The translations under genes and the position numbers were made by a program. From positions 1 to 20,032 of IMG/VR virus record IMGVR_UViG_3300003690_000186: DNA of 20,032 nt; one strand, written 5' to 3'. A model generated the notes under the pieces. It searched no databases, had not been told where the DNA came from, and saw only the letters and a list, made by a program, of their open reading frames with translations. Below, one piece after another: positions 8,142-19,112 of the stretch (positions are counted from its first letter, which is position 1; every line of letters begins with the position of its first letter). The DNA is from a virus.

Positions 8142-8828
8142 CTACACGCCAGCCTGATGCTTTCTGAGATAGACCAGGGCGAGTTCAAGTTTTTCGGCAG
8201 AATCACCAAGATTACCTATCCCAGCATTACAGGCACCACAGAGAAGACCTCTGACCTTTCCGGTATCATGACAATGATCAACCGACAGATCGTTCTTATT
8301 CCGCAGTTCCTCTTTCCCGCAAATGGCACATACGCCTTCCTGGCTCTCAAGAAGATCGTTGTAGTCCTCAAGACTCATCTTGAAATACCTCTTAAGATGC
8401 ATCCTTTTTACGGCATCAGGATTACTCTCTCGCCATTCCTTAGCATACATATTCTGATATTGGCGAGCTTCTTCTGTATTTCTAAGTGGAGCATGAACCC
8501 ATTGGGCATTATCCGGTCCGAGATCCCTCGTCATATCCACTCGGCGTAAGAAATGGCGCTTAGAAGGTCGATCTCCTACATCCTCAACGAACTTCCAAAA
8601 GTCCTTATCCCACACCTCGCAGATATCCTCAATATTACTACGACGATGCCATGCCCAGTGGTTATATAATGGATGCTTCTCCCGACTTCCCCAGTCCTTG
8701 GGACGAGTGGAATCAAGGTGGCCATGTCTCTTTAGTCGTATACGATGTTTATCGCATAATCCCTTGGAAACAATCAACCCATCACATCCTACCACTGAAC
8801 ACTCCTTCTTTTCTTTAACAAGAGCCAT
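8142..8828 (-). CDS. Free-standing endonuclease with C-terminal Endonuclease VII domain
   Basis: A 228-residue protein from ATG at 8828 with GGGG 7-8 nt upstream; an in-frame ATG at 8840 lies inside the hairpin and would add four residues. Three modules are visible. Residues 10-28 form a small zinc-binding cluster (C10, C15, C25, H28). Residues of about 50-120 match the HPLYxxW...DVGDRPS...RRxDxxxxLGPDNAQW region common in phage homing-type endonucleases. Residues 150-225 match recombination Endonuclease VII: YFKMSLEDYNDLLESQ, CAIC (C167, C170), VDHCHDTGKVRGLLC with D184/H185/H187, and C197/C200 followed by NAGIGNLGD. Such genes are typically selfish homing elements between phage structural genes; a Holliday-junction-resolving role is the alternative. 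Confidence 0.85.
   Translation of the reverse strand: MALVKEKKECSVVGCDGLIVSKGLCDKHRIRLKRHGHLDSTRPKDWGSREKHPLYNHWAWHRRSNIEDICEVWDKDFWKFVEDVGDRPSKRHFLRRVDMTRDLGPDNAQWVHAPLRNTEEARQYQNMYAKEWRESNPDAVKRMHLKRYFKMSLEDYNDLLESQEGVCAICGKEELRNKNDLSVDHCHDTGKVRGLLCGACNAGIGNLGDSAEKLELALVYLRKHQAGV
8146..8154. repeat. Direct repeat (left copy) flanking the endonuclease gene
   Basis: The 9-mer ACGCCAGCC here recurs exactly at 8896-8904, 750 bp away. Both copies encode the same C-terminal Ala-Gly-Val then stop, in the endonuclease here and in the capsid protein at 8892. Confidence 0.45.
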
Positions 8829-8836
8829 GATATACC

Positions 8837-8875
8837 CCATATATTAAGAGTAGAATCTCTACCCTTAATATATGG
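8837..8875 (-). promoter_or_regulatory. Long hairpin covering the endonuclease ribosome-binding region
   Basis: A 12-bp perfect stem (8837-8848 with 8864-8875), one A/C mismatch, then five more pairs (8850-8854 with 8858-8862) and a 3-base loop. It begins 17 nt after the capsid stop, and its 3' arm on the minus-strand transcript runs into the GGGG Shine-Dalgarno of the endonuclease (ATG at 8828). In T4, similar hairpins block translation of homing endonucleases from read-through transcripts; the same role is inferred here. It could also protect the capsid mRNA end. Confidence 0.6.
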
Positions 8876-8891
8876 TCTATACCCCGTGTTG

Positions 8892-9797
8892 TCATACGCC
8901 AGCCACCCCAAAGACGCCTCTAGGATCAGACCAGCCACTGCTCTGCGAAAACATCAAACTGACCTTGTGGTCCTTGGTCTCAAACTCTTCCTCGTAGTCC
9001 GTCCACGGGGTCTCGCGCTCATAGAGCAGGAGGAAATGGTCGGACTTCTTGGCGACGAGGAACCACGCATCCGTATCCGTCAGATAGTGCCAGACAGCCG
9101 CTGAGGTGCTGTCATACAGCGGGTTGGAGGCGTTGGTATCGTTCTCTGGGGAGTACATGCTCTTGAGGTAGCGGTGCGCCTCAAAGCGCAACTCCTTGGG
9201 GATCACCAGTAGTTCAGGCTCTATCATCAGCCTCTTCCCGCCACCGTCACGGAAGTCAGAGAAATCGATATGCGCCTGCTCCAGCGACGTCTGTGAGAGG
9301 TCGGCGCTGCTGGAGAGTTCGTTGGCGTAGGTGGAGCCGTCCTCACGGACATGGGCAGAGCTAAACAGCTCTACGCCGTCAGCACCGGTGAAACCGGAGT
9401 CAAAGCCGTTGTTGAGATGATTCGCCAACAGCGTCTCCTCCGTAGCTACCGCCATACGCCCCAACTCTGCCGCCTGCTGCTCCATGGTACCATACAGGTC
9501 CTCACGGAACATCCTGCGGGTGATACGCATACCGTTACCGTAGTCTACATGGGTAAAGGTCTGCCTGAAACCTTCGTTGAGACTGACGTACGCCAGCCCC
9601 TGACCTTCAGCAACCTCAGGCATGATGCCCGCGCCGCCGGCGGTCTGCGTGTCCTCACGGTACTGCGTAGAGGTACGCACGTTGAAGATCTCACGGCCCT
9701 TACGTGGCCGCTGTTCCCACTCATCGAAGATGACGATGTCGATGCCTCGTAGCGTGGTGTGGTTGGCCCACGCGCTGGTCTCCATTATGCTAGCCAT
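8892..9797 (-). CDS. Major capsid protein, Mu gpT-like HK97 fold
   Basis: A 301-residue protein resembling Mu-like gpT major head subunits. Family-like features are the N-terminal segment ending in IFNVRTSTQYREDTQ, then EGFRQTFTHVDYGNGMRITRRMFREDLYG, the helix LGRMAVATEETLLANHLNNGF (an HK97-type spine helix pattern), and a C-terminal FETKDHKVSLMF region. Its ATG overlaps the previous stop (TAATG). It follows scaffold and decoration-like genes, the expected order. No protease gene is visible nearby and there is no obvious N-terminal delta domain, consistent with a separate scaffold. Confidence 0.85.
   Translation of the reverse strand: MASIMETSAWANHTTLRGIDIVIFDEWEQRPRKGREIFNVRTSTQYREDTQTAGGAGIMPEVAEGQGLAYVSLNEGFRQTFTHVDYGNGMRITRRMFREDLYGTMEQQAAELGRMAVATEETLLANHLNNGFDSGFTGADGVELFSSAHVREDGSTYANELSSSADLSQTSLEQAHIDFSDFRDGGGKRLMIEPELLVIPKELRFEAHRYLKSMYSPENDTNASNPLYDSTSAAVWHYLTDTDAWFLVAKKSDHFLLLYERETPWTDYEEEFETKDHKVSLMFSQSSGWSDPRGVFGVAGV
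8896..8904. repeat. Direct repeat (right copy) at the 3' end of the capsid gene
   Basis: ACGCCAGCC, identical to 8146-8154, here encoding the last residues (AGV) of the capsid protein. The two copies bracket the endonuclease gene and its upstream hairpin. Confidence 0.45.
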
Positions 9798-10327: not shown

Positions 10328-11104
10328 TTAAAGACTGCGCTCACCGCGCTGGTCTCTGATGTGCATAAACCCCTCACGTACGCCCTCACGCTGGCGTATG
10401 TTACCCCTCTCTAACCCCCGTCCCAGGCTGTCGGCACGTTGCTGGGCCACCTCCCTGGGTAGCCCGTCAGCGAGAAAGCCCTGGTAGGCCTGCTCTTTGA
10501 TGTCATCAGGATGGTTACCGACACGCTCCTCTGCCCGTGATCGTAGCTGGTCCTCGGTCTTGCGGGCCTTGACGGCCCGACGCTTGTCCACGGTAGTCTT
10601 AGGCAGTTGGAATAGCATCATCTCGTTGGACTTCTGCAGTCCATCTTCTGTACTATTCTGCTTCTTCATATAGTTCTCACCCTTGAAGGGCACCGGCTCA
10701 CCACCTTGGTTACGCCAGTAGCTCACCTTATCGGGGGAGGCCCAGCGGAGGACATCGCCCTTCGCCTCAGCCTCCCGACGTACATCAGGGTCTATAGCTA
10801 AGAAGTCTACCTTGTCTACCTCATCGAGGATCTCCAGGCCTAGACGCTCTTCCACCGTCTCTTCTCTGACACGGTCATTATTCTCAATCAGTCTGGGCAC
10901 CAGCGTCTGCTGTTCGTAGGCCATGATGGACTTGTGTTCGTGTGAAGAGCGGATATGAGCCTGAAAGGCCTTCTCCTTGTTGCTCTTGGTGCCGTTACTC
11001 CAACCACACCAAGGACACTCTTCGGGATTAGCGTGAGAGTTGTAGATGTAGAGGACAGCCTCAGTCAAAAGGCCTTGGGTGGTGTCAACGGTTACTTCAG
11101 TCAT
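10328..11104 (-). CDS. Zinc-finger-containing protein of unknown role between scaffold and capsid genes
   Basis: A 258-residue protein starting with ATG overlapping the scaffold stop (TAATGA). Residues of about 30-56 contain CPWCGW...KAFQAHIRSSHEH, a C2H2 finger with Cys-x2-Cys and His-x4-His. The remainder is highly charged, mostly helical in pattern and rich in Arg, Glu and Gln, with an Arg-rich C-terminal third (DSLGRGLERGNIRQREG). No enzyme motif is visible. A nucleic-acid-binding or assembly-linked role is possible because the gene is locked between two head genes. The family is not recognised. Confidence 0.75.
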   Translation of the reverse strand: MTEVTVDTTQGLLTEAVLYIYNSHANPEECPWCGWSNGTKSNKEKAFQAHIRSSHEHKSIMAYEQQTLVPRLIENNDRVREETVEERLGLEILDEVDKVDFLAIDPDVRREAEAKGDVLRWASPDKVSYWRNQGGEPVPFKGENYMKKQNSTEDGLQKSNEMMLFQLPKTTVDKRRAVKARKTEDQLRSRAEERVGNHPDDIKEQAYQGFLADGLPREVAQQRADSLGRGLERGNIRQREGVREGFMHIRDQRGERSL

Positions 11105-11937
11105 TAGTGTTGTCCTTCCCGAGCCTTCTGCTTTTCAATAGCAGCCTCTAGTCGTTTGGGGTCCATGCTTGATAATCTACCGAAGGACTTCGTTAGCTCT
11201 CCGGTCTCTACTTTTGTTTCCTTTGGTGCCGCCGATCCTCCTGACGGCTGCAGTGGATTGGTAGGTGCCTGAAAGGTGGGCTTCTCTATGGCGCCGGACA
11301 TTAACATCTCAGTATAGAGTGATTTGGTGAGATGCTTCACATCCTCGGGACGAGCGGCCAACTGCGGGTCAGTCTGCATCTGTGACTGCACCGCCGAGTG
11401 GATCTTGCCCGCACCCTCCTTATTCAGCATGCCCTTAGCCATCATGTTCTGTAGGGTATTGCTGACGTTCGCCACGGACGATAACCGCGAGGCTACCGCC
11501 GCATCTCCGTGCTGTGCCAGTGCTATAGCCTCATCACGAGAGACTAGGCCGGCCTTCTTGATCTTGTAGTCCACGGCCAGGTCGAAATTCTTTTTGGCCC
11601 GTATGCCAGGATCATCACGCCCAAAAGCATCGGCGATGGTCGCCTCTACCGCATCCTCCTCAACATCGTCACCGTTGACGGGCGCAGGAGGGGTCGATTT
11701 CACTTCCTTCAGAGCCTTATTCTCAGCCTCTAGCCGCGCTACATAGGGTTGTGCTTCTTTACCCCACTTTTCCCACTGCTGATTCTTCTGTTCTGCCGCC
11801 TCCTTATGCTTAACCATCTCATCAAAGCGGACGACATCAGACGATTCATCTACGCTGGCTTGTTCCGGTCCAGGATCCGGTGTCTGATCGGTTGAGGGCG
11901 AGGACTCCTCCACTACACTCGGTTGAACTTCACTCAT
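11104..11937 (-). CDS. Scaffolding protein
   Basis: A 277-residue acidic-then-helical protein with ATG behind GGAGATATT. The N-terminus is disordered-looking and acidic (Ser/Glu/Asp/Pro-rich, about 1-40). It is followed by a coiled-coil stretch (EMVKHKEAAEQKNQQWEKW through LEAENKALKEV), a charged helical middle, and a C-terminal segment ending SSMDPKRLEAAIEKQKAREG, which could be the capsid-binding helix. This composition, absence of Cys, and the position between portal and capsid are standard for scaffolds that guide procapsid assembly and then leave. Assignment rests on composition and context. Confidence 0.8.
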   Translation of the reverse strand: MSEVQPSVVEESSPSTDQTPDPGPEQASVDESSDVVRFDEMVKHKEAAEQKNQQWEKWGKEAQPYVARLEAENKALKEVKSTPPAPVNGDDVEEDAVEATIADAFGRDDPGIRAKKNFDLAVDYKIKKAGLVSRDEAIALAQHGDAAVASRLSSVANVSNTLQNMMAKGMLNKEGAGKIHSAVQSQMQTDPQLAARPEDVKHLTKSLYTEMLMSGAIEKPTFQAPTNPLQPSGGSAAPKETKVETGELTKSFGRLSSMDPKRLEAAIEKQKAREGQH

Positions 11938-11945
11938 AATATCTC

Positions 11946-12065
11946 CTAGTACTGCTTCGCGGGATCTTTACGCGTATAGCTTCCCTTGCTACCCTTGGCC
12001 TTGGCCTTGGGATGCCCCTTGCTGCCTGAGGCCTTACGCGGAGCCTTGCCATAATTATCTTTCAT
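11946..12065 (-). CDS. Small Lys-rich basic protein (39 aa)
   Basis: A 39-residue product from ATG at 12065, overlapping the previous stop (ATGA) with GGAG 5 nt upstream. It contains about 10 Lys and 2 Arg against 2 Asp, with a repetitive core of Lys alternating with Gly, Ala and Ser (KASGSKGHPKAKAKGSKGS), resembling histone-H1-tail-like DNA-binding segments. It lies just before the scaffold gene in a run of small basic genes. DNA or scaffold/capsid binding by charge is an inference; no family is recognised. Confidence 0.75.
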   Translation of the reverse strand: MKDNYGKAPRKASGSKGHPKAKAKGSKGSYTRKDPAKQY

Positions 12066-12262
12066 GGGTTCTCCTTTGGGTTATGCGCCTTCTTGAGGCG
12101 CGTGAGTTCGCGCTGAATGCGTTCAAGACGCTTAGCGTCCATACCCACATCCAGGATGATGGGATCATCATTCTCTTTAAAGGTGAACATCAGGAAGTCA
12201 CCGGGCAGATTATTACGGGCGACCGTCCTGGTCCCTTCATTATCCAGTGTCAGTAGAGGCAC
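12062..12262 (-). CDS. Hypothetical helical protein (66 aa)
   Basis: A 66-residue protein from GTG at 12262, 7 nt after the stop of the Arg-rich gene; no strong Shine-Dalgarno is present, so coupling is likely. The first half is a small beta-type region (FLMFTFKENDDPIILDVG) and the second half is an amphipathic charged helix (RLERIQRELTRLKKA). The C-terminal helix loosely resembles that of the 75-residue product at 12604-12831. The family is not recognised. Confidence 0.65.
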   Translation of the reverse strand: MPLLTLDNEGTRTVARNNLPGDFLMFTFKENDDPIILDVGMDAKRLERIQRELTRLKKAHNPKENP

Positions 12263-12269
12263 TATCTAA

Positions 12270-12602
12270 CTATCGTCTTCGAGCCGCAGCACGCCTTCGG
12301 GCCGCAACGGCTGCTGTTGCGAGAGACGCTCGGCTAGCAGGACGTCGAGTCGTTTGCGCTGGAGCACGTCTTACTGCTCTTCGACTCGGTGCTCTACCGC
12401 GAATTGCACCCGATCCTACGGTCCCTCTGAGACGCGATAGTGGTCGTCCGGCTGGCGCACGCGCTGGCGCACGTCTTACTGCTCTTCGTGCCGCAACACG
12501 CCTTTGGGGACCTGACCCGCCCCCTCTCCCTCTGAGACGCTCTAGTGTTTGTCCAGCAGGACGGCGAGAGACACTGCGCGTGGGGGTTCTTCGATGTGGC
12601 AT
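12270..12602 (-). CDS. Arginine-rich, lysine-free protamine-like protein with internal repeats
   Basis: A 110-residue protein from ATG at 12602 with a perfect AAGGAGG 7 nt upstream, one base after the previous stop. By count it has 33 Arg, no Lys and a single Glu, with Ala, Pro, Gly and Ser making up most of the rest, giving a net charge near +32. Residues of about 13-47 and 48-82 are two copies of a 35-residue unit sharing RRAVRRAPA and RLRG, followed by a shorter third Arg/Ala segment ending RRRAAARRR. It contains GRGG and RGR stretches reminiscent of AT-hooks and protamines. It sits between portal and scaffold. A role in condensing or anchoring packaged DNA is inferred. The opposite strand also lacks stops here but has no start signals. 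Confidence 0.75.
   Translation of the reverse strand: MPHRRTPTRSVSRRPAGQTLERLRGRGGGSGPQRRVAARRAVRRAPARAPAGRPLSRLRGTVGSGAIRGRAPSRRAVRRAPAQTTRRPASRASLATAAVAARRRAAARRR
12356..12565 (-). repeat. Imperfect tandem duplication, 105-bp unit, inside the Arg-rich gene
   Basis: A 28-bp segment at 12461-12488 recurs at 12356-12383 with one mismatch, and 14 bp at 12527-12540 recur exactly at 12422-12435. Both pairs are offset by exactly 105 bp (35 codons), showing an in-frame duplication. Confidence 0.85.
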
Positions 12603-12603
12603 A

Positions 12604-12831
12604 TCAACCCTCCTTAGGGTCCAATTCCTTCTTGAGGTTCGCCAGACGTAGCCGCCATCGCTCTATGCCCTCGATGACCCCCGCCTGCACGTTGATCTTG
12701 GTGATGTTTCCCTCACGGGAGAAACCACGTAGGGAGGCGTTCTCCTTACGTATCATCTCATCAGCCGCCGCCACCAGGTCGTTCCAGGCGGGATTGGTGA
12801 TGAAGTCCTTCTGTTCACGGGCAGAGGCCAA
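12604..12831 (-). CDS. Hypothetical helical protein (75 aa)
   Basis: A 75-residue protein from TTG at 12831, directly abutting the stop of the preceding 41-residue gene. It is predicted mostly helical: an N-terminal NPAWNDLVAAADEMIRKENA helix, a short strand around TKINVQAG, and a charged C-terminal helix (GIERWRLRLANLKKELD). The end of the gene carries the AAGGAGG that serves the next gene. Its charge is balanced, unlike the basic products on both sides. It is unrecognised; a small virion or assembly protein is inferred from position. Confidence 0.75.
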   Translation of the reverse strand: MASAREQKDFITNPAWNDLVAAADEMIRKENASLRGFSREGNITKINVQAGVIEGIERWRLRLANLKKELDPKEG

Positions 12832-12957
12832 CTACCGGCCCCGGCGTCTGGTTGAGCGAATCCTCGCCTTGGGCCTGGGGGCGAGACCCATCGATCTGAA
12901 ACCGGGAATAGACGGCGCCCTGCGTCCTCGACCACGCTGTGGTTTATACGCCGGCAT
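12832..12957 (-). CDS. Small Arg-rich basic protein (41 aa)
   Basis: A 41-residue frame from ATG at 12957 with GGGAGA about 6 nt upstream, two bases after the previous stop and ending immediately before the next gene's TTG. It contains 12 Arg and 2 Lys and no acidic residue, with clusters RGRGRRAP and STRRRGR separated by Pro/Gly. Tight packing between two other genes and the ribosome-binding site support it being real despite its size. A nucleic-acid-binding role is inferred from charge only. Confidence 0.7.
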   Translation of the reverse strand: MPAYKPQRGRGRRAPSIPGFRSMGLAPRPKARIRSTRRRGR

Positions 12958-12959
12958 GA

Positions 12960-13148
12960 CTATCTCCCTTTCGATGAACTCTTAGTAGGCTTCGGCCCCC
13001 GTCGGAAGCCCTCGCCATCCCCATGCTTCTTACCATCCTGGTCTGCGCTTCCTGCGGAGTGCCCCTTACCCATACCGGTGACGGTGTAACTGTCCTTGCT
13101 GGTATAGTAGGGTTGCTTACGTGGTCCTCTGTTCACTCTGCTGCTCAT
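12960..13148 (-). CDS. Small basic Gly/Ser/Lys-rich protein (62 aa)
   Basis: A 62-residue protein whose ATG shares a base with the portal stop (TAATG), so it is probably coupled to portal translation. It has about 14 Lys plus Arg against 5 acidic residues and is low-complexity and probably disordered (GMGKGHSAGSADQDGKKHGD, then a basic tail with KSSSKGR). There is no hydrophobic core, signal or Cys. It is the first of four small basic products between portal and scaffold. Function unknown. Confidence 0.7.
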   Translation of the reverse strand: MSSRVNRGPRKQPYYTSKDSYTVTGMGKGHSAGSADQDGKKHGDGEGFRRGPKPTKSSSKGR

Positions 13149-15385
13149 TATACCGGTCCTATGTTAGGTGATCCGTTAGGAGGGAGACTCTGTGAGATAT
13201 CGCCCATCTTCCCACCCTGGTCTACCCCCATCAACTGCGGGACGATCCTATCCTGACTCCCTGCGGGATTCGTAGGTGTAGGGCCTGCATTGTTGGGATC
13301 CTGCCCCCCCTGCTGTTGCTGTAACTGCATCTGTTGCTGCTGCTGCATCTTCTGCTGCTTGGCCTGCACATGCGCCTGGTAGTGGGCCATATGCCCCTTA
13401 AGGTTCGGGGAGCCCATACTCTGGAACTCAGAGGACTGGATATGCTCAAGGCTCTCAACCATATGACTATCATCGTTGTCGTTGGGATGTACCGGTCCCG
13501 GTTTACCTATACCGTGGATCTGCTGGTCCATCTCCCCGTTCTCCTCATCCTGTGGCTTGGCGACACCTGGACCGACAGCCTCCTTAGGACCGAAGAAACG
13601 CTCCGGCGTAGGTATGTTCCTGGCGTTGGCGGAGAACATGCTCATCTCCCAGAGCCTGCCCATGTCCTGCGTGATCAACGGGTTCCACTGTGCCATAGCC
13701 TCCAGCGACTGCGCCTGCTCCTGTCTCGTCATGCTCGAGTAGGTGCCCTGGTTGGAGCCTACCCGGTAGTCATACTCACCGCGCATACGGAGGTCTTCTC
13801 TGGATAGTTTCTGCGTCAGCGGACCCTCCTTGCCCTGCAGGCGTAGTAACCGGTAGTCGGGACCATACTGTATCTCCATCGTCTGTATCATCTTACAGAG
13901 GAAGGCGAAGGCCTCGGAATCCTGACTGACCAGCGTCTCCATACGGGCGAGAGCCTCCTGCTGCGTACCTACAAAGCCGGTAGCATGTCTTGCGGCGGCA
14001 CCCTGAGTGGGGGAGATACCAAGAAATAGATCGGTGACGCCCATGACCCGTTCAATGATCGTGAACAGTTGCTGCTCTTCCTGGTAGTAGAAGGAGGTGA
14101 CCGACTGTAGTTGCGGGAAACGGATGTCGTTAGGGTCATCGACCGGGATACCGGAGAGTGGCTTGAGTTCTATCTGTTCAGGGTTGATGCCCGAGGTAGC
14201 TTCTAGCTCCGCTGAGAGGTGCTTGCCTATCTCCGCGATCCCCATGCTATACCAGCGTGTCCCGACTACCTGGTAGTGCATCTCCAGTAGCGGCCGTTCA
14301 CCGGTGTTGACGATATCTGAGAGCCTGAAGGCCCCCAGCAGCATACGCGGTCGGCGACACCAGAAGAAGACGATCTCCTGCGTCTCATCACCGTCAGGAC
14401 CCTCTATCTCCCACGGGGCGAAGGCGGTGATGATCTCATACTCAGGATTGGCGTTAGAACCTCTGGTGGTGCCCCGAGAGTTACGGTCGCGGCCTTCGTG
14501 CCGGTCGTGGGATCGTGCGGAGGTCTGGTTGGTGGTGCCGGACTCTGACTGGGATCTATCCTGCGCCGGCTGGTCAGAGCGCCATTCATCCTTGGTGTCT
14601 TTGTCGGAGCCCTCTATAAAGGTATAGGCCTTCTCCCTCTTGTCCCATATCAGGTTCAGATCCTCCCAAGAGCGGAGCATGACCCAGGGAGCACCGGAGG
14701 GGTTGGAGAGGGATCGAGGCTGCAGGTTGATGCCCGTGTCCATAGGACATACGACATCATCCCAGGTCTTCATCTCTATCACCGGACCGTGATACCGGGA
14801 CTTCTCCACCAGGTTGACCTTCTCAGGAACTGCCTCAACGGCGTTACCTTCCTCATCTACCTTGAGGGTATCGTCGAGATTGAACTCGAAGGCGGGGAGG
14901 GCGCTATTCTCATAGTCACGGACGATGTACTTGTCGTTGACGTAGGACAGCAGACCTACACTGTAGCCGTGGATACCTCGGGAGCGAGATAGACGGGACC
15001 ATATGGCCCTGGCGTTCATACGCTTGGGCTGCAGGTGCCAGTCTATCAGTTTGGTGGAGTGGCGGAAGGCCTCGGAATCATCGTCCTCTTCGGCCTGCCC
15101 CCCTACCAGGGGTGTCTGCCCCCAGATAGTAGAGTCAAGACGCACACAGATGGCGTCAACAAGCCAGTAGATGAGCGGTACGTGCAGGTTCGCGGCGTTG
15201 GCCCACGGACCCTCCCTGTCAGCTACGTTGCCACGGAACATATCATCGTAGCTCTCGTGATCTGACTGAAAGGAGGTGCGGTCCTCTATCTGACCGTTAT
15301 ACAGGTCCTCAAGGTGATGGAGGATGGTATCCTTCTCATCATCCTTGAACTTCAGGGGTACCGGAGCGGGGAAAGGTGAGGGCAT
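13148..15385 (-). CDS. Portal protein
   Basis: A 745-residue protein, the size of P22-type long portals, with ATG behind AGGAG. The N-terminal helical wing (about 15-60) is followed by PWANAANLHVPLIYWLVDAI, a characteristic start of the portal core. Then come WDDVVCPMDTG, an acidic/Ser/Arg-rich insertion (about 270-320), and a stem/clip-like region near EQQLFTIIERVMGVTDLFLG and ATGFVGTQQEALARM, typical of portal stem helices. The C-terminus is a Gln-rich coiled coil (KQQKMQQQQQMQLQQQQ), as in the P22 barrel that directs DNA. It forms the dodecameric channel at one capsid vertex and docks the terminase. Its order before the scaffold fits. Confidence 0.85.
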   Translation of the reverse strand: MPSPFPAPVPLKFKDDEKDTILHHLEDLYNGQIEDRTSFQSDHESYDDMFRGNVADREGPWANAANLHVPLIYWLVDAICVRLDSTIWGQTPLVGGQAEEDDDSEAFRHSTKLIDWHLQPKRMNARAIWSRLSRSRGIHGYSVGLLSYVNDKYIVRDYENSALPAFEFNLDDTLKVDEEGNAVEAVPEKVNLVEKSRYHGPVIEMKTWDDVVCPMDTGINLQPRSLSNPSGAPWVMLRSWEDLNLIWDKREKAYTFIEGSDKDTKDEWRSDQPAQDRSQSESGTTNQTSARSHDRHEGRDRNSRGTTRGSNANPEYEIITAFAPWEIEGPDGDETQEIVFFWCRRPRMLLGAFRLSDIVNTGERPLLEMHYQVVGTRWYSMGIAEIGKHLSAELEATSGINPEQIELKPLSGIPVDDPNDIRFPQLQSVTSFYYQEEQQLFTIIERVMGVTDLFLGISPTQGAAARHATGFVGTQQEALARMETLVSQDSEAFAFLCKMIQTMEIQYGPDYRLLRLQGKEGPLTQKLSREDLRMRGEYDYRVGSNQGTYSSMTRQEQAQSLEAMAQWNPLITQDMGRLWEMSMFSANARNIPTPERFFGPKEAVGPGVAKPQDEENGEMDQQIHGIGKPGPVHPNDNDDSHMVESLEHIQSSEFQSMGSPNLKGHMAHYQAHVQAKQQKMQQQQQMQLQQQQGGQDPNNAGPTPTNPAGSQDRIVPQLMGVDQGGKMGDISQSLPPNGSPNIGPV

Positions 15386-16640: not shown

Positions 16641-17245
16641 TGGACGATACCCTTGATGAGGATGTCGTGGACGGCCGTCAGGTTGACCTTCTTGATATGC
16701 TGGCAGACATAGTTGGGGTCTACCATGACGCCCCCTATGTCCCTGAAGAAGGTGAAGTCCTCCCCTAGCCACTCGATCCCAGGCTCGTAATGGAAGGGAT
16801 CCTCAGGTAGCTTGTCGAAGACCTCCCTGCGTAAAAGAGCACACCCCAGTCCGGTAGCGGCGGCATGGAACGGTTCGTCGGGCCAATCCTGGCGGCGGTA
16901 GAGGGCCCAGGTGCCCTCCCCATCACCGGGCCTGTAGACGTTCCAGTGCAGCGCGCGGTCTAGGCGGAAGGACTCGTAGGGACCGCAGACGGCGGAGTAG
17001 TCATGGTCGAGGAAACTCAGATTCATCGGCGGTACCGTGTCAGAGTCTATCATCCATAGATGGGTACAGTCAGAGTCGAGAAACGCCCTGAGGATCATGT
17101 TCCTGCCGTGGGCGATTCCGTAGCCGGCGGTATAATGCCGTTGGGCATCGATCTCAATATTACGAAGGCTAGCTAGCCACATGAGCCAGTCCGTCAGCGA
17201 GCCCTCTACCTGACCTTGGGTGGGTATCCTCAGCATGATCTTCAT
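16637..17245 (-). CDS. GT-A fold glycosyltransferase
   Basis: A 202-residue protein whose ATG overlaps the terminase stop (ATGA). The N-terminus has the nucleotide-sugar-binding pattern MKIMLRIPTQGQVE and the GRN(M/I)ILRAFL helix (residues 47-56). Then comes HLWMIDSDTVPP, with the metal-binding DxD motif at D67-S68-D69, and a GLGCALLRREVFDKLPEDPF segment and GEDFTFFRDI typical of family-2-like enzymes (the acidic ED pair is a likely catalytic site). It would transfer a sugar from an activated donor. The acceptor is unknown: virion protein, modified DNA base or host surface glycan are options. It is unusual to find it inside the terminase-portal operon. Confidence 0.8.
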   Translation of the reverse strand: MKIMLRIPTQGQVEGSLTDWLMWLASLRNIEIDAQRHYTAGYGIAHGRNMILRAFLDSDCTHLWMIDSDTVPPMNLSFLDHDYSAVCGPYESFRLDRALHWNVYRPGDGEGTWALYRRQDWPDEPFHAAATGLGCALLRREVFDKLPEDPFHYEPGIEWLGEDFTFFRDIGGVMVDPNYVCQHIKKVNLTAVHDILIKGIVQ

Positions 17246-17802
17246 GGCAGACTCATCAGGGTGCGTATGTGCTTGTTATGGTCCCAGGCAGGATGCCAGG
17301 TGTGTCCTACCTCCTGGGTGACGCCCCAGAGGGACATGGCCGAGGCTATCACCCCGTCAATCTGCTTGGACTGCTTCATCTTGACGATACGCCAGCCCCT
17401 CTCCGTATGTATCGCGTTGGCGGAGGCGAAGTGGGTCCTCAGGGCAGGGTCTTTAGGGAAGAGGACAGAGCCGTCATGGATATGAGCGTGGAGGGTGTTG
17501 GAACAGGGGAGCATCATAGACTGCTGGTTGACCTCTACGAGGATGTCCTTATAGCCCTCCTCGATGAGCCGCTGCTCAGTGGTCGCGAACTGATAGGGGT
17601 CGTAGAGCAGGGCGGCGACACGGTAGGTGGCGAGGACATCGAAGAGCGCCGGCTCCACCTGATTGATGATATCTACGGGGGCGGGCCATATAGCGGAGCC
17701 GAAGCAGCCGAAGGTGCTGTCATCCATGCGGAAGTACCCGGTCAGGGCGGTAGAGTCACGCTTCACCGCCAGGTCAAGACCCAGGTAGAGGACGGGATCC
17801 AT
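17242..17802 (-). CDS. Terminase large subunit nuclease domain (ATPase domain absent)
   Basis: A 186-residue protein matching only the C-terminal RNase H-like nuclease half of phage large terminases. The three metal-binding acidic motifs are visible: YLGLDLAVKRDSTAL (D10), LLYDPYQFATTEQRL (D68), and KQIDGVIASAMSLWG (D149). This domain cuts the DNA concatemer during packaging. No Walker A or B motif is present in this gene or in any other gene of the window. The ATG at 17802 shares one base with the previous stop (TAATG), so it looks like a complete separate gene rather than a truncation. A usual full-length subunit has 450-600 residues. Confidence 0.8.
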   Translation of the reverse strand: MDPVLYLGLDLAVKRDSTALTGYFRMDDSTFGCFGSAIWPAPVDIINQVEPALFDVLATYRVAALLYDPYQFATTEQRLIEEGYKDILVEVNQQSMMLPCSNTLHAHIHDGSVLFPKDPALRTHFASANAIHTERGWRIVKMKQSKQIDGVIASAMSLWGVTQEVGHTWHPAWDHNKHIRTLMSLP

Positions 17803-18181: not shown

Positions 18182-18409
18182 TTATCGGGCTTTGTCGGTA
18201 GATCGCATGCCCCTCTGGGCTGGATAGTGGGTATGAGACCGCTGGTTTCTAGCGTAGATGCGCTGTGCCTGCTCTACCGCGGCGTCGGTGAAGAAGTAGG
18301 GCTTTCTATACCCTGACTCCTGCTCAGCGGCCAGCCAGCCCTTCTTCGCGTACTTCTTCAGCGTCCTCTCCGCGATACCGGTCCGCAGTGCCAGATCCTT
18401 GATGTTCAG
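18182..18409 (-). CDS. Small MerR/Nu1-like winged-helix DNA-binding protein, apparent CTG start
   Basis: A 75-residue product. The CTG at 18409 overlaps the GroES stop as CTGA, matching the ATGA/GTGA/TTGA junctions of its neighbours, and gives (M)NIKDLALRTGIAERTLKKYA, a natural start of a MerR-type helix-turn-helix. The wing-like continuation GWL...SGYRKPYFFTDAAVEQAQRI resembles the N-terminal winged helix of lambda Nu1, the small terminase that recognises cos. No ATG, GTG or TTG is available between the upstream in-frame stop and the HTH helix. Its location just upstream of the terminase nuclease supports a small-terminase or regulator role. The fold is a confident reading; the terminase role is inference. 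Confidence 0.65.
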   Translation of the reverse strand: MNIKDLALRTGIAERTLKKYAKKGWLAAEQESGYRKPYFFTDAAVEQAQRIYARNQRSHTHYPAQRGMRSTDKAR

Positions 18410-18882
18410 GGGGCTGTGGGGGGCGCCGGACCTGATCCCTGGGTGATCCCCTGTGCCTCCCTGGATGACTTGGCCCTAGCGGCTAACTTCTCCCGCTTGC
18501 GACGCTCCGTATACTCCAGGAGGGGCTCGTCGGGTAAGGCCTTGGGGCCTAGATCCTCGATAACAGCCTCATCGCCACCGACATCCGTCTCCGCTGACGC
18601 TTCGACAATGGCGAGGATATCCTGATCCTTCATCAGCCAGTATACATCCCCGTTGTAACTGATCTCCGTGCCGGCGTACTTGGCGACGACGACACGATCA
18701 CCTACCGCCGTATCCATCGCTATCCTAACACCCTTGTCCAAGGCCCCAGGGCCTACGGCGACGAGAACGGCGATGTCCGAGGCTCGCTGTGCGGTGTCCG
18801 GTATCAAAATACCACCCTCCGTAGCCTCATCACCGGCCTCCTTCTGTACGATTACCCTGTCCGCTATCGGTGCTGGGAACAT
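18406..18882 (-). CDS. GroES-like co-chaperonin with C-terminal extension
   Basis: A 158-residue protein from ATG at 18882, preceded by AAGGAGTAGGAAAT; an upstream in-frame start at 18957 would overlap the previous gene. Residues 1-95 match Cpn10: FPAPIADRVIVQKE, the mobile-loop segment TEGGILIPDTAQR that binds GroEL, AVGPG, VGDRVVVAKYAGTEI and a final MKDQDILAIVEA. Cpn10 is normally about 97 residues, so about 60 residues of acidic then basic, Pro-ending tail (EYTERRKREKLAARAKSSREA) are extra. Phage co-chaperonins such as T4 gp31 pair with host GroEL to fold the capsid protein; the same role is inferred here. Confidence 0.9.
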   Translation of the reverse strand: MFPAPIADRVIVQKEAGDEATEGGILIPDTAQRASDIAVLVAVGPGALDKGVRIAMDTAVGDRVVVAKYAGTEISYNGDVYWLMKDQDILAIVEASAETDVGGDEAVIEDLGPKALPDEPLLEYTERRKREKLAARAKSSREAQGITQGSGPAPPTAP

Positions 18883-18887
18883 ATTTC

Positions 18888-19112
18888 CTACTCCTTGTTC
18901 TCGTGTTGTGAGGCCCATTCCAGCCAGCGTTTTATCATCATCCCTGCAAGTTCCCATCTCTCCTCCATAGTAAAGACTACTCCGACTACGCCATCATACC
19001 CCCCATAAACATCTCCATCCGTCCCCAGGCCAACGATACCTTTGTTGGCATAGAAGGTCTTTCCAGTACTCAGGGTGATCTCATCCTCATCCATCTCTGG
19101 TGTTATTGTCAT
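18888..19112 (-). CDS. Hypothetical protein (74 aa)
   Basis: A 74-residue protein with ATG overlapping the previous stop (ATGA). The first part is acidic and beta-like (TPEMDEDEITLSTGKTFYAN), then Gly-rich (GLGTDGDVYGGYDGVVGV), ending in an amphipathic helix (MEERWELAGMMIKRWLEW). No motif is recognised. Its gene ends 6 nt before the GroES start and carries the GroES ribosome-binding site in its tail or spacer. Confidence 0.7.
   Translation of the reverse strand: MTITPEMDEDEITLSTGKTFYANKGIVGLGTDGDVYGGYDGVVGVVFTMEERWELAGMMIKRWLEWASQHENKE

Follow-up and report, generated by a model that had tools for sequence, protein, structure and literature searches.

The open reading frame at positions 12270 to 12602 of the minus strand, hereafter called p110, codes for a predicted arginine-rich, lysine-free protein of 110 amino acids in the head module of a tailed phage, and is probably a real gene and not a product of chance. 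That it is also translated appears likely. There is about an even chance that the explanation which best joins the observations holds as a whole, namely that p110 is an accessory gene particular to this lineage, both genuine and translated, and that its product would be a disordered polycation binding nucleic acid at head assembly or packaging. The window, i.e. the whole stretch of DNA analysed, is an entire IMG/VR virus record of 20,032 bases, a phage contig with its main genes on the minus strand. The features of p110 are:

12270..12602, minus strand: p110, Arg-rich, Lys-free ORF of 110 aa, described by composition, repeats, codon phase and shuffles
12609..12615, minus strand: AAGGAGG, resembling a Shine-Dalgarno (SD) site, 6 nt ahead of the p110 ATG
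12462..12566, minus strand: repeat copy A, 35 aa, amino acids 13-47, RRPAGQTLERLRGRGGGSGPQRRVAARRAVRRAPA
12357..12461, minus strand: repeat copy B, 35 aa, amino acids 48-82, RAPAGRPLSRLRGTVGSGAIRGRAPSRRAVRRAPA
12270..12356, minus strand: diverged third stretch, amino acids 83-110, Arg/Ala-rich C-terminus ending AAARRR

The residues of p110 are R33, A23, G11, P10, S8, T7, V6, L5, Q3 and E1, with K0 and D0, giving an Arg share of 30 %, a computed pI of about 12 and a computed charge of about +32. The original prediction was confirmed in its coordinates, frame and composition (33 Arg in 110 residues, no Lys, one acidic residue). It had also described two 35-residue duplications, of which the duplication itself is present but the number is not, as there is a single 35-amino-acid unit in two tandem copies. 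Copies A and B are identical at 67 of 105 nucleotides (64 %) and at 20 of 35 amino acids, and the repeat families D1 and D2 within p110 are spaced by 105 nt. Amino acids 83-110 were judged by eye to be self-similar.

The location of p110 among head genes, also part of the original prediction, was borne out, the ORF lying inside the head module between the portal gene and the scaffold and major capsid genes. The surrounding genes are:

13148..15385, minus strand: portal protein
12960..13148, minus strand: b62, basic 62-aa ORF after portal, not found in the closest relative
12832..12957, minus strand: a41, Arg-rich ORF of 41 aa, of which 12 are Arg; missing from the closest relative
12604..12831, minus strand: h75, conserved 75-aa head-operon protein, TTG start, upstream of p110
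12062..12262, minus strand: s66, conserved 66-aa protein, GTG start, no clear SD, downstream of p110
11946..12065, minus strand: k39, conserved Lys-rich basic 39-aa protein, upstream of the scaffold-position gene
11104..11937, minus strand: putative scaffold-position protein, 277 aa, role assigned by position only
8892..9797, minus strand: major capsid protein (MCP; Phage_capsid_4 / Mu gpT-like)

The borders of h75 and s66 were set by homology, h75 matching that of the relative L012 at 57 % and s66 starting with M/L-P-L like that of L012. Only 1 nt separates the h75 stop from the p110 ATG, and 7 nt separate the p110 TAG from the GTG start of s66, a layout which is that expected for translational coupling and which the insert appears to preserve. 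With its own SD and its ATG just past the h75 stop, p110 would be made together with the head proteins by coupling, and its stop just ahead of the s66 start could pass coupling onward. Since s66 has no clear SD and overlaps h75 elsewhere, s66 would depend on translation of p110. The perfect AAGGAGG reported earlier ahead of the p110 ATG is indeed there and overlaps the last codons of h75. The heptamer is by itself common, occurring nine times on the minus strand of the contig, and AAGGAGG alone is therefore weak evidence for p110 being a gene. A start codon follows 3-10 nt downstream in two of the nine cases, the other being internal to a GroES-like gene, and the p110 site is the sole minus-strand AAGGAGG with a start codon at a gene's end.

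These nine occurrences, mostly within genes, fit a different explanation, that p110 is not a functional gene but a repeat-built or decaying foreign insert of 330 nt, the Arg-rich frame of which is open by composition and the SD of which is a by-product of Lys-Glu codons in h75. It is also favoured by the atypical codon usage of the p110 frame, the other minus frames being more genome-like, and by the low T content at position 1, which eases long frames, both strands being open at p110. We nevertheless consider it somewhat unlikely, as the start and stop of p110 match both conserved gene borders and the statistics of the stretch argue for coding. The 3-base periodicity of p110 gave a chi2 of 74.7 (P 4e-14); the contig is itself mostly coding, and 0.15 % of its 330-nt windows attained this value. 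In 5000 dinucleotide-preserving shuffles of the stretch the number of Arg was 18.4 ± 3.6 with a maximum of 31, none reaching 33, and the frame stayed open in 4.2 %. Because out-of-frame ORFs are often Arg-rich in GC-rich phage genes, they were chosen as a control. With every frame of the window and of 16 related sequences (17 in total) taken into account, 914 ORFs had a length of 60 amino acids or more. The out-of-frame ORFs of these 17 sequences fell short of the Arg content of p110, which had the highest Arg fraction of all 914; the second highest was that of a 63-aa intergenic ORF in the portal-h75 interval of the related sequence L003. Thus p110 was found to have a start with an SD, an open frame, codon-phase composition and a fit to its neighbours. 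The remaining two minus frames over the stretch have near-normal codon usage but are interrupted by several stops, which speaks against the insert being non-coding and led us to reject a different true frame at the locus; a PHROGs search with these two frames and two plus-strand frames (stops masked) gave only noise. A structured RNA was also rejected, with no Rfam match and a fold less stable than those of shuffles (z-score +1.67).

The synonymous codon usage of p110 is the least genome-like of all genes of the contig (score -0.64), with AGA and CGA making up 19 of the 33 Arg codons, no CGG, and low GC3. The two Arg-rich ORFs of L003, of 63 and 39 amino acids, are likewise AGA-rich and low in GC3 (scores -0.49 and -0.26, GC3 0.38 and 0.50), while the scores of their neighbours h75, s66 and k39 in L003 are 0.62-0.80. 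They arose independently of each other in the analysis as ORFs like p110 in the same head-operon interval, with similar Arg content and their own SDs, but differ from it in being on the portal side of h75 and in containing Lys. Because their usage is similar, the atypical codons of p110 speak less strongly for a non-coding stretch, and the odd codon style would seem to be a trait of the putatively translated Arg-rich ORFs of this module, not of p110 alone. Homology of p110 to these ORFs, or to a41, b62 or k39, was not convincing (shuffle P 0.022 and 0.44 for the L003 ORFs, with five targets tested).

Between copies A and B, 6 of the 21 codons that differ in the p110 frame are synonymous, compared with 1 and 2 synonymous differences in the other two minus frames, and amino acid identity is highest in the p110 frame. 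The codon-aligned antisense frame is open and also has 6 synonymous changes. As no relative carries p110, the comparison was limited to its internal repeats, for which the synonymous excess had a P of about 0.06 against a shifted-mask null, and is only suggestive of purifying selection in the frame.

Relatives were gathered among viral contigs via their portal and capsid genes, and 12 related sequence groups were compared at the junction. The gene order is kept: portal, a variable stretch, h75, s66, k39, the scaffold-position protein, c258, dec171 and MCP. In 10 of the 12 groups h75 and s66 overlap, and in the other two unrelated genes of 400 aa (L024) and 195 aa (L027/L028/L036) are found between them. 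The h75/s66 junction thus accepts genes. The junction genes of L024 (5234-6436) and L028 (5751-6338) both begin MTMMPNIDP, and in L031 a gene with a similar beginning sits before h75 and not at the h75/s66 junction. The closest relative, L012/L013, has a portal protein 62-66 % and an MCP 83 % identical to those of the window; there the portal gene leads directly into h75, which overlaps s66, and b62, a41 and p110 are all missing. Altogether p110 is absent from 12 of 12 related groups examined, L012/L013 included, and none of the viral contigs scanned was closer than L012/L013 and covered the p110 region. Loss of the frame in related phages had been named as evidence against the original prediction; the entire insert is missing in all relatives found. 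This disfavours a virion protein that is conserved and essential, but is compatible with a gene confined to one lineage. Thus p110 is probably a lineage-specific accessory insert and not a conserved virion component, and since relatives with equivalent head genes lack it, an essential role in packaging is unlikely. The gene may have been inserted, or have grown by duplication of the 105-nt unit, between two normally overlapping small head-operon genes, and the junction illustrates how small accessory genes enter a tightly overlapped head operon with a coupling-type arrangement retained.

As an orphan that is repeat-built and missing from all relatives, p110 could alternatively be a translated newborn gene, functionless or nearly so, grown by tandem duplication and having as its sole effect the delivery of ribosomes to s66. 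We regard this as improbable in view of the weak synonymous excess between the repeats and the maintained start, SD and stop. That p110 is known from a single metagenomic contig could also suggest a chimeric join in the assembly that put its sequence at the junction. The portal gene, moreover, lacks near residue 394 a stretch of 21 residues conserved among relatives (TIHNMRMDVGFATNMPFFFFV in L012), the 63 nt having been either deleted in frame or lost through faulty assembly. However, the joins of p110 fall precisely at gene borders with plausible signals and the adjacent conserved genes are intact, making an artefact very improbable.

Homology search and structure prediction, suggested with the original prediction as ways of checking the function, did not name one. 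No homologue of the p110 product was present in PHROGs, Pfam, NCBIfam, PDB, phages, plasmids or IMG/VR; the PDB search returned only histone H3 (E 0.04-0.11), probably an effect of composition. AlphaFold, run without an alignment, gave a low-confidence model (mean pLDDT 58), mostly unordered with possible helices and with no fold indicative of function. A known foreign donor of the DNA was rejected, no nucleotide or protein match being obtained among phages, plasmids and viral contigs (a 29-nt match with E 0.4 was noise). A search of genome contigs with the MCP gave one weak 27-residue match and no host.

As to its role, we infer the translation, disorder, nucleic-acid binding and timing of p110. 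The product would be a mostly disordered arginine polycation which binds nucleic acid electrostatically during head assembly or packaging, with protamine-like chemistry. Nucleic-acid binding follows naturally from the strongly polycationic character of p110, and we give it an about equal chance of being or not being the main action of the predicted protein. For polycations, RNA and acidic proteins are as good binding partners as DNA, and the partner of p110 could instead be the scaffold-position protein in the prohead, the gene of which is just downstream of p110 and the N-terminus of which is visibly rich in Glu/Asp, or else host RNA or ribosomes. This is unlikely, the scaffold-position gene being kept in relatives without p110.

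A comparable protein is P6.9, the protamine-like core protein of baculoviruses, which are insect viruses; it has about 50 amino acids and condenses DNA in the nucleocapsid (PMC6669607). Like P6.9, which acts in nucleocapsid assembly, p110 is small, arginine-rich and strongly basic, and its composition is of the P6.9 type, with very high Arg and few acidic residues. The two differ in that the role of the roughly 50-aa P6.9 in the nucleocapsid has been shown, whereas p110 has 110 amino acids, is repeat-built and is known from sequence alone. No sequence homology of p110 to P6.9 or another known protein of this type was found by Pfam, PHROGs, NCBIfam or PDB search. The J protein of Microviridae (phiX174) is a small, basic protein that enters the capsid with DNA. 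It resembles p110 as a small basic phage protein, but belongs to a single-stranded-DNA phage, is a defined virion component and had no detectable homology to p110. In the literature searched for phage protamine-like proteins no example from a tailed phage was found.

The general view of packaging in tailed phages is that small counter-ions, not protamines, accompany the DNA. The original prediction had suggested a DNA-condensing or pilot (ejection) protein of the virion, for either of which p110 is at most a candidate. Location and chemistry make a protamine-like, DNA-condensing virion protein a plausible reading of p110, but one which is rather unlikely and is weakened because p110 is missing from the closest relative. 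It is speculative, and in our opinion doubtful, that the Arg-rich ORFs of the portal-to-scaffold interval encode protamine-like proteins that change rapidly, replaced or regrown by lineage, and that would enter the head and neutralise the double-stranded DNA packaged in it. If true, lineage-variable Arg-rich head proteins would be a protamine strategy in tailed phages, and an arginine polycation from the head operon would open the counter-ion view of their packaging to simple proteomics.

For a conserved basic head-operon protein k39 is a better candidate than p110. Both are small basic proteins of the same operon, but k39 is Lys-rich, conserved in 13 of 13 loci and encoded by a separate gene alongside p110. 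Its homologues (about 40 aa) precede the scaffold-position gene in 12 of 12 relatives and have the pattern A-S...K-G-x-P-K-A-K-A-K-G...K-Q-Y. Searches of Pfam, PHROGs and NCBIfam with k39 gave nothing above threshold.

Elsewhere on the minus strand, c258 (10328-11104) has an N-terminal C-x2-C...H-x3/4-H motif (CPWCGWSN...AFQAHIRSSH), which resembles a zinc finger and is apparently retained in L003 and L017. Three further genes were named from their sequence only: a GroES-like co-chaperonin gene (18406-18957), a short ORF with a terminase-like nuclease domain and no evident ATPase part adjacent (17242-17802), and, downstream of the MCP gene, an HNH-endonuclease-like gene with C-x2-C motifs (8142-8840), the codon usage of which is atypical.
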